This document shows, piece by piece, positions 20,958-23,558 of a stretch of DNA of 40,242 nucleotides. The notes beneath the pieces are model-generated. The model made no database searches, was not told the DNA's origin, and was given only the letters and a program-made list of their open reading frames with translations. Every line of letters begins with the position of its first letter. Within the stretch, counting starts at the first letter, position 1. The DNA is taken from the NCBI GenBank assembly GCA_004321745.1, contig SGYO01000016.1, forward strand, positions 1 to 40,242, given 5' to 3'. A program made the position numbers and the translations under genes. This DNA is from a bacterium. GTDB taxonomy: Bacteria > Fidelibacterota > Marinisomatia > Marinisomatales > UBA1611.

Positions 20958-22202
20958 CTATTCATCTTCAGTAGATAATCCAAGAACTTTTGCACTAGGT
21001 TCATCGATTGAAGAGTTATTAGAATCATCATCGATCGAATTATTTGAGCTATTATGGATTATCAAATCCTCGTTTTCAATTAATTTTTTAAAAATAATAA
21101 AAATTATTGTCTCACCAACTGCTAAAATTGAAAAGCCATAAGAGATAAAAGAAATGTAAATGAAAATGAGAATTATAGAAATTATTAAACCGCTAACTGT
21201 TTCAATAGAGGTTATGTAGCCACCATCAGAATTATAGGTTAAATCAGGAAGTGTAGAAACAAGAAGATTAGTAGTCTCATTAAACAAAAATACGAAGAAT
21301 CCAATTATGTCTAGGCTTATGGTTTTTAATTGGAATGTAAAATTTTGTAATACTGAAATATTATCCAAAATAAAATCAATATTTAAAATTGAAGTAGCAT
21401 AGCTCAATACATTTGAAAAAGTGGACCCAATAAGCTCGGCAAAAATAAAATTAATCATCGCAAAGCCTGTCTCGTAGAACCATGAGAAGATATTTAATGA
21501 TATTACTATTAAAGGGAGTAGTAGTAGGTTATAAAAAATTAATCGCCAAGGTTGATTGTATAAGATTTTATATGATTGAAAGACAGATCCAACCGTATCT
21601 TCATTATGGACTCCAACCAAAGATGGTAGCATTAAAAATGAGCTCAAAAATACTAAAAAAGTAAATAAAAGAAATATTGCTCCAAAAAAGTATAAAGGAT
21701 AAGTAATAGCAAGTAGGATAGAACCAATGTAAGGAATCCTTCCAATCAAGGCGAAGAAAGAACCGATTAAAAAAAGTGATAAAAGTATAAATACGAAAGT
21801 AATTGGAGAGAATAAAATAGTTTTCCACTTTTTCAAAGCATCATCAATTGCTTCATTGATAGAATGAAAGTGCTCTCCCCTTAATTGCCTAATGGTTAAA
21901 GAAGATATCGCTGTACTAGAAATAAGTAAACAATATAGCCAGAATAAAATGCCAAAATAAAATATGATCCAAGAAAAAGTCGAATAGTCATTGCCCGCTA
22001 GATAGGGGTAGAGACCATAATCATAAAGAGCCTCAATTATGTTCACATTTGATACTATCATTGCAAGAAATGATAATACCCAATAGCCAATGTAACCAGT
22101 CAAGTTACTTAGAATAAAGATACAAATCTTTTTTGGGCTTAACCCTATACGAGGTGCAAGAAATATATCTTTGTAGTTAAAATGCAGTTTTTTTTCTAAC
22201 AA
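20958..22202 (-). CDS. Multi-pass membrane protein of unknown function
   Basis: 414 residues, not recognised as a named family. About eight hydrophobic segments can be seen (roughly 25-48, 72-98, 128-150, 155-190 as two, 215-245, 300-320, 335-375), with a hydrophilic Ser/Asn/Asp-rich C-terminal tail (about 390-414). There are no catalytic motifs. The likely start is TTG at 22202, because an in-frame stop lies 21 bases upstream and the first internal ATG is inside a membrane segment. It sits between the SPOR gene and the fab cluster, on the same strand with short gaps, so it may be cotranscribed. The architecture vaguely resembles membrane domains of glycerophosphodiester phosphodiesterase-like proteins, without real support. 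Confidence 0.7.
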   Translation of the reverse strand: MLEKKLHFNYKDIFLAPRIGLSPKKICIFILSNLTGYIGYWVLSFLAMIVSNVNIIEALYDYGLYPYLAGNDYSTFSWIIFYFGILFWLYCLLISSTAISSLTIRQLRGEHFHSINEAIDDALKKWKTILFSPITFVFILLSLFLIGSFFALIGRIPYIGSILLAITYPLYFFGAIFLLFTFLVFLSSFLMLPSLVGVHNEDTVGSVFQSYKILYNQPWRLIFYNLLLLPLIVISLNIFSWFYETGFAMINFIFAELIGSTFSNVLSYATSILNIDFILDNISVLQNFTFQLKTISLDIIGFFVFLFNETTNLLVSTLPDLTYNSDGGYITSIETVSGLIISIILIFIYISFISYGFSILAVGETIIFIIFKKLIENEDLIIHNSSNNSIDDDSNNSSIDEPSAKVLGLSTEDE

Positions 22203-22220
22203 ATTATATGATGAGTTATA

Positions 22221-22562
22221 TTAATTATCCACTCTTACAAAATCAACCCAAACAGCAAGTTTAATGTCTTTGCTTACTACATTAGCTATTGCTTGAGCAG
22301 AATTATAGTTGTCATAACTTCCAATCCTTACTCGATACCAAACTTCCTCAGTTTCTTTAAAATATGCTTTCTGTATATATGCGTCATAACCAGACTTAAT
22401 TAATTTATCTGCAAATTTCTGTGCGTCAACTAAACGTTTTTTGGATATTACTTGTATGGTAAAACGGTCTTTCTTTGCAGGTATATTTGAACCTCTCGCA
22501 GATCTTAATTTGGAAGCTCTTTTTTTATTTGATATTATTGCCTTAGTTGTAGATTTTTTCAC
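22221..22562 (-). CDS. SPOR-domain protein, probably the 3' part of a frameshifted lipoprotein gene
   Basis: 113 codons from a GTG at 22562. Residues about 30-110 are a SPOR domain (FTIQVISKKRLVDAQKFADKL, AYIQKA, EEVWYRVRIGSYDNYNSAQAIA), which binds denuded glycan strands of septal peptidoglycan. The GTG lacks a ribosome binding site and overlaps the upstream TAG by one base. Read upstream in this frame, the codons continue as EEEEDVTPKKSIV straight into the Glu repeat of the upstream gene. Adding one missing base near 22600/22601 joins both frames into a 299-residue lipoprotein-Glu linker-SPOR protein. It is therefore most likely not an independent gene; a translationally coupled second gene is the alternative. 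Confidence 0.75.
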   Translation of the reverse strand: MKKSTTKAIISNKKRASKLRSARGSNIPAKKDRFTIQVISKKRLVDAQKFADKLIKSGYDAYIQKAYFKETEEVWYRVRIGSYDNYNSAQAIANVVSKDIKLAVWVDFVRVDN

Positions 22563-23119
22563 TATACTTTTTTTAGGAGTGACATCTTCCTCTTCTTCCT
22601 TTCTTCCTCTTCTTCCTCTTCTTCCTCTTCTTCCTCTTCTTCCTCTTCCTCTTCTTCCTCTTCAATTTCTTCCTCTTCAATTTCTTCCTCTACTTCCTCT
22701 TCAATTTCTTCCTCTACTTGACCGTAATCATCAAGGCTTTCCTTCAACCATTCTTCTTCTTTTGCTGTTTCATCTTCAATTTCCTCTTCTTCAGCTTCAG
22801 TGAAGTCAGAAATGGTAAAGAAGAAAGATTGACTTGACAGTTCATCGCCAAACTTTGTAACTGATACTTCAAAATTATAATCTCCTGGATAGTCTGGAGT
22901 GAAAATCATTTCTTGACCATTATTTTTATATTTAAGATCTTTAGGACTAAGTAGACTACCATCAGGCTGTCCCATAATTATCCAATTGTAATCAACATTT
23001 GTTTCCTCCAGATTTTCCTCAGCTGCAATTGATATTATTTGACCTACTTGGCCCTCAACGCCTTTACCACCACAGGAAATCAAAAATAATAATATTGGTA
23101 AGTATAATAATTTTCTCAT
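22562..23119 (-). CDS. Lipoprotein with Ig/PKD-like domain and poly-Glu linker (5' part of split gene)
   Basis: 185 residues. The lipoprotein signal ends LISC (Cys16), so the product is lipid-anchored. Residues about 20-105 form a small beta domain resembling PKD/Ig-like folds (YNWIIMGQPDGS, then FTPDYPGDYNFEVSVTKFGD). From about 108 on it is almost all Glu, then it ends abruptly in basic residues (RKKRKMSLLKKV), which looks like an out-of-frame tail of the GAA/GAG repeat. Restoring one base would continue into the SPOR domain. A surface-anchored SPOR protein tethering the outer membrane to septal peptidoglycan would make sense. It lies 13 bases from ndk. Confidence 0.78.
   Translation of the reverse strand: MRKLLYLPILLFLISCGGKGVEGQVGQIISIAAEENLEETNVDYNWIIMGQPDGSLLSPKDLKYKNNGQEMIFTPDYPGDYNFEVSVTKFGDELSSQSFFFTISDFTEAEEEEIEDETAKEEEWLKESLDDYGQVEEEIEEEVEEEIEEEEIEEEEEEEEEEEEEEEEEEEEERKKRKMSLLKKV
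22586..22719. repeat. GAA/GAG (CTT/CTC) microsatellite-like tract
   Basis: On the + strand this is a nearly pure run of CTTCCTCTT-type units, encoding Glu on the minus strand. The regular pattern TTCCTCTTCTTCC is broken once, as TTCCTTTCTTCC at about 22597-22608, where one C is missing. That break shifts the reading frame between the lipoprotein and the SPOR domain. Such tracts are prone to slippage in replication and in sequencing or assembly. Confidence 0.9.
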
Positions 23120-23132
23120 ATGTAAACAGTTT

Positions 23133-23558
23133 TTAGTTATTTGCTATAAGTTCACTATCTGAGAAGAAAAATCCAATCTCTTTTTTTGCATTTTCATCAG
23201 AATCTGATCCATGAACTGCATTTTCTTGAATATTTGTTGCAAAATCTTTCCTTATCGTCCCATTTTCTGCTTCCTCAGGGTTAGTTGCTCCGATGGTTTT
23301 TCTCCATTCCTCTACTGCATTTTCTTTTTGAAGAGCCAGTACCATACAAGGTCCAGATGACATAAATTCGGTAAGTTCACCAAAAAACGGTCTTTCTTTG
23401 TGTACTGCGTAAAAACCTTCAGCCTGAGACTGTGTCATGCGAAGTAGCTTTGCGCTTTTAATTTCAAAGCCTGCTGATATTATACGATCATATATTTTAC
23501 CAGTATTTCTATTTTTCACTGCATCTGGTTTAATAATTGCAAAAGTTATATTATTCAT
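23133..23558 (-). CDS. ndk: Nucleoside diphosphate kinase
   Basis: 141 residues, standard length. It transfers the gamma phosphate between NTPs and NDPs through phosphohistidine H116 in the signature NAVHGSDS. FAIIKPDAVK and KERPFFGELTEFM are conserved. It lies 22 bases after sucD; pairing with succinyl-CoA synthetase is biochemically sensible because Ndk equalises the ATP and GTP the synthetase can make. Confidence 0.97.
   Translation of the reverse strand: MNNITFAIIKPDAVKNRNTGKIYDRIISAGFEIKSAKLLRMTQSQAEGFYAVHKERPFFGELTEFMSSGPCMVLALQKENAVEEWRKTIGATNPEEAENGTIRKDFATNIQENAVHGSDSDENAKKEIGFFFSDSELIANN

Follow-up and report, generated by a model that had tools for sequence, protein, structure and literature searches.

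The window, a stretch of 40,242 bases, is one entire contig (C8) of a marine bacterial genome of 1.75 Mb that is assembled in 40 contigs and 92% complete, and whose named relatives are Candidatus Neomarinimicrobiota / Marinimicrobia (SAR406). The features at the locus are as follows.

23133..23558, minus strand: ndk, nucleoside diphosphate kinase, the upstream neighbour (Pfam NDK, E 4.6e-55), intact
22562..23119, minus strand: ORF A, the 5' piece, 185 aa from an ATG; signal peptide, Ig/PKD-like beta-sandwich, acidic linker and basic tail
22585..22663, minus strand: purine-only GAA/GAG tract of 79 bases with a 9-base unit, GAAGAGGAA (TRF; purine run)
22599..22602 (about), minus strand: register break between the two frames, one base short of a multiple of three, within the purine-only tract
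22568..22574, minus strand: A7 run, A_AAA_AAA in the zero frame, seen in the sequence ahead of the TAG stop of ORF A and relevant only to a rival reading
22221..22562, minus strand: ORF B, the 3' piece, 113 aa from a GTG; end of the linker and SPOR domain
20958..22202, minus strand: putative membrane protein, the downstream neighbour, with no Pfam family, intact

ORF A begins with a signal peptide whose lipobox is LISC, the lipobox Cys lying in MRKLLYLPILLFLISC-GG; the lipoprotein signal was called by eye and by motif, and an equivalent Cys is present in relatives. The frame ends in ...EEEERKKRKMSLLKKV*, and its basic tail, RKKRKMSLLKKV, is out of frame and directly follows the register break. 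ORF B matches the Pfam family SPOR (PF05036) with an E value of 3.9e-10 and a score of 40.4 bits, above the curated cut-off of 21. The GTG of ORF B overlaps the stop of ORF A by one base (TAGTG) and is probably not a true start. When frame B is extended upstream of this GTG, it reads ...RKEEEEDVTPKKSIVKKS, with EEEEDVTPKK lying inside the same GAA/GAG tract, so that frame B supplies the Glu codons of the final stretch, whereas the long stretch has its Glu codons in frame A. The total span is 899 bases, that is, 300 codons minus one base, and besides this one-base offset neither half carries a lesion. A sequence-only reading of the locus had described the Glu-rich frame, the basic tail after the break in the repeat, the upstream EEEEDVTPKK and the 300 codons obtained by adding one base, and was accurate on each of these points.

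The relatives carry both pieces in a single frame

Of the 61 genomes examined from the same genus, family and order, 51 contain the SPOR piece, a few weak matches among them being other SPOR proteins, and most of the 51 matches sit at the C-terminus of open reading frames that are about 260-355 codons long. In a second collection of 50 loci, every locus without a contig end, an N-gap or a chimera is one continuous ORF, about 270-355 codons in length, except for the locus designated L049. Across the ~40 Neomarinimicrobiota relatives with an uninterrupted locus, one ORF was seen in all but one, and the order within it is a signal peptide with its Cys, a conserved domain (..QPDGSL..F.PDYPGDY..V...GDE..), an acidic linker and the SPOR domain. 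With both pieces lying in one ORF in the relatives, the frame break in the window is more than a coincidence. These results strongly support the earlier claim of one gene, for a Glu-rich SPOR lipoprotein, that a one-base offset has split into the two ORFs; two clearly separate genes, the arrangement that would have contradicted it, were looked for in the relatives and were not found.

In addition, the pN/pS values against G005, a genome of the same genus, were 0.08 for the N-terminal domain, which is 89% identical between the two, and 0.07 for the SPOR domain, figures that are rough since synonymous sites are near saturation. The values for the neighbouring genes were higher (ndk, 0.11; sucC, 0.12; sucD, 0.13). 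Judged from these ratios, both halves are under strong purifying selection. Long-standing decay of the gene, one of the causes suggested from the sequence, is therefore disfavoured, as both halves are constrained and no further lesion is present. The window's own genes served as the frameshift control: those that have orthologues in either G005 or G002 aligned in a single frame over about 32 kb, and none was broken.

The acidic linker varies in steps of three bases

The purine-only tract lies in a larger repeat array (22585-22702, TRF), to which units of 9 bases, and also of 15 and 24 bases, can be fitted. Nowhere else in the genome do eight GAR codons follow one another without interruption, and no long homopolymer is present at the register break within the tract. 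The tract varies widely among relatives. Clear linker arrays in these have units of 3, 6, 9, 12, 15, 18, 21, 24 or 42 bases that code for EEE, EDD, EED, DEYED, EEDQD and similar stretches, and the sole odd unit, 13 bases in L050, belongs to a weak, lysine-rich array with a score of 42. Since the high-scoring repeat units are multiples of three, the gain or loss of units preserves the frame. These results indicate that the linker is a hypervariable GAR/GAY tandem repeat, changing length in frame in multiples of three bases, and that it is a naturally occurring case of a disordered linker that can be tuned.

Domains of the encoded lipoprotein

In the AlphaFold2 model of an intact homologue (G027), two confident domains are separated by a linker, residues 109-181, with pLDDT below 50. 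Foldseek matched the first domain to Ig-like/PKD structures, and the last domain to the SPOR structures of CwlC, RlpA, DedD and DamX (E about 0.002-0.02, TMt 0.33-0.73); a phmmer search of the SPOR piece against the PDB gave no match. The best Pfam PKD (PF00801) hit in the homologues, with an E value of 0.016, is under the curated cut-off, so that, taken together with the Ig-like/PKD fold matches, the N-terminal domain is labelled only as PKD-like. The product is thus most likely an envelope lipoprotein in which an Ig/PKD-like domain, anchored to lipid, is followed by a long, acidic and disordered linker and, at the C-terminus, by a SPOR domain.

SPOR domains bind septal glycan strands stripped of peptides (denuded; PMC6895207). 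By analogy with its family, the SPOR domain of this protein would bind denuded septal peptidoglycan, and the flexible acidic tether would link the lipid-anchored Ig-like domain to it across the periplasm. The protein resembles known SPOR proteins (PF05036; RlpA, DedD, DamX, FtsN and CwlC) in being an envelope protein with a C-terminal SPOR domain and a long low-complexity linker, whereas it differs from them in carrying a lipid-anchored Ig/PKD-like sandwich instead of a transmembrane helix or a lytic transglycosylase, in the hypervariable acidic repeat of its linker, and in that no enzyme domain was seen. A search of the literature on SPOR lipoprotein frameshifts and Marinimicrobia SPOR proteins returned nothing on this gene, and a scan of viral contigs found no SPOR part there.

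Assemblies frequently break within this gene

In the same family, a contig end or an N-gap lies inside the gene in 8 of the 21 genomes (G002, G005, G012, G013, G018, G022, G023 and G025), compared with about 2.8 expected (P about 0.003). The expected ends were derived from the contig numbers and are rough, the numbers being rounded and an N-gap being counted as an end. For the other families of the order, in which the linkers are less repetitive, the count was 1 of 22 genomes, with 3.0 expected.

In G005, a contig stops within (GAAGATGAT)n of the linker and another contig starts just past the linker, while in G002 a contig begins in the repeat and contains ambiguous bases. Four further genomes of the same genus (G001, G003, G004 and G006) have neither this gene nor ndk; loss of the gene was considered for these, and absence of the region from the assemblies reads better, because ndk is missing too.

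Two loci of the second collection are also informative. At a contig end in a MAG labelled Myxococcales (SP234; L080, PBLQ01000036.1), a response-regulator-like protein is fused to a near-identical copy of the SPOR gene in the window (152/164 bases, about 93%), and the junction lies exactly in a Glu tract. This locus is a Myxococcales/Neomarinimicrobiota chimera joined inside that tract, which shows that such GAR/GAY tracts can fuse contigs even across phyla. The exception L049 (NZXC01000025.1, about position 2280; isolate NAT422) carries, in the linker of this gene, a one-base deletion that is absent from the near-identical L052. Judging from their names, SP234 and NAT422 look like Tara Oceans MAGs of the PMC5769542 series, in whose assembly Minimus2 served to merge primary contigs at 95% identity. 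In practical terms, MAGs often have this conserved SPOR lipoprotein of Neomarinimicrobiota in broken form, or lack it, owing to its GAR/GAY repeat linker.

Origin of the one-base offset

Given that the gene is uninterrupted in the relatives and is a frequent breakpoint of their assemblies, the offset is probably an artefact. We infer that the gene is intact in nature and was split here by a sequencing, consensus, assembly or contig-joining error in the repeat. The repeat linker of the intact gene would expand and contract in threes, and the one-base offset would arise within it as a consensus or joining error. Among the three causes that the sequence-only reading had offered, assembly error thus fits best, whereas decay of long standing is disfavoured and an on/off switch driven by slippage is unsupported. 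Three observations nevertheless weigh against an artefact. When a de Bruijn path goes wrong in a repeat with 9-base units, the length would usually shift by a multiple of three and not by one; the base accuracy of the window appears good, with no N bases and with its other genes clean; and the deletion in L049 is a second one-base loss in the linker, for which real biology is also possible.

The main rival to an artefact is a real and recent frameshift allele, which we regard as unlikely. On this view an indel in the mutation-prone repeat would have cut the lipoprotein short in this strain, or in its population, with the lipid-anchored domain kept and SPOR lost. Simple repeats suffer true indels as well as assembly errors, and both the clean remainder of the window and the separate one-base linker deletion of the MAG L049 are consistent with such an event. 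Conversely, the two halves rank among the most constrained sequences nearby, no further lesion has accumulated, and the SPOR part is retained in the great majority of the related genomes (51/61, a few being other SPOR proteins).

Another reading is a true frameshift that the cell decodes: ribosomes slipping by -1, or RNA polymerase slipping, on the A7 run would yield some full-length protein. The run places the slippery heptamer A_AAA_AAA in the zero frame, as a programmed -1 frameshift would have it, and a -1 slip there would enter the SPOR frame before the TAG, which is the correct direction; an SD-like GAGGAAG lies slightly upstream. The chance of an A_AAA_AAR within 13 codons is about 2% in this genome, with codon statistics drawn from stretches of 17 other contigs. 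Compensatory frameshifting of interrupted genes (PMC5009743) and their rescue by slippage, for example in Citrobacter rodentium tssM (PMC4256274), are documented, and the window gene resembles tssM in that its frame break has an A-rich run close by, at which slipping could re-establish the frame. In contrast to tssM, the run here is just an A7, is not conserved as a signal, and has intact relatives without it. Furthermore, no stimulatory RNA structure was found downstream of the A7 run, where folding was weaker than in shuffled sequences (z +1.7), the A-rich codons just encode Pro/Ser-Lys-Lys, as they also do in L080 and G002 (A6), and the site was noticed post hoc. A conserved frame break was not seen in the relatives, which read in one frame. 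Decoding of this kind is therefore very unlikely, and there is only a slender chance that the break is real and that the A-rich Lys-Lys codons act as a slippery safety site yielding both truncated and full-length septal lipoprotein.

Phase variation, in which slipped-strand mispairing in the GAA/GAG tract would toggle the lipoprotein on and off, is highly improbable. As in known repeat-mediated phase variation, the coding sequence contains a tandem repeat, here in an envelope lipoprotein gene, and the tract differs widely among relatives. The unit here, however, is a multiple of three (9 bases, with 15 and 24 also fitting), as are all the clear units of the relatives, so that the frame is kept, and the offset of one base, in a purine tract with no homopolymer at the break, is not expected from slippage of such units. 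A switch would have represented a new mode of septal lipoprotein regulation; the evidence points to an artefact instead.

There is virtually no prospect that a Glu-rich lipoprotein and a SPOR protein are encoded at this locus by genes of their own, coupled in translation through the base shared by the ORF A stop and the ORF B GTG, since the single ORF of the relatives contradicts it, the 3' ORF would be without a signal peptide, and its frame runs on into Glu codons upstream of the GTG.

Antisense and downstream reading frames

An ORF on the opposite strand (22441-22803, plus strand, 120 aa), antisense and Leu/Pro-rich, has no Pfam family and was set aside as a shadow of the GAA/GAG repeat. 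The downstream gene for the putative membrane protein (20958-22202, minus strand) has a listed TTG start ~19 bases beyond the SPOR stop. Its product is 58% identical to that of G005 and evolves faster, and its adjacency to the SPOR gene is conserved.
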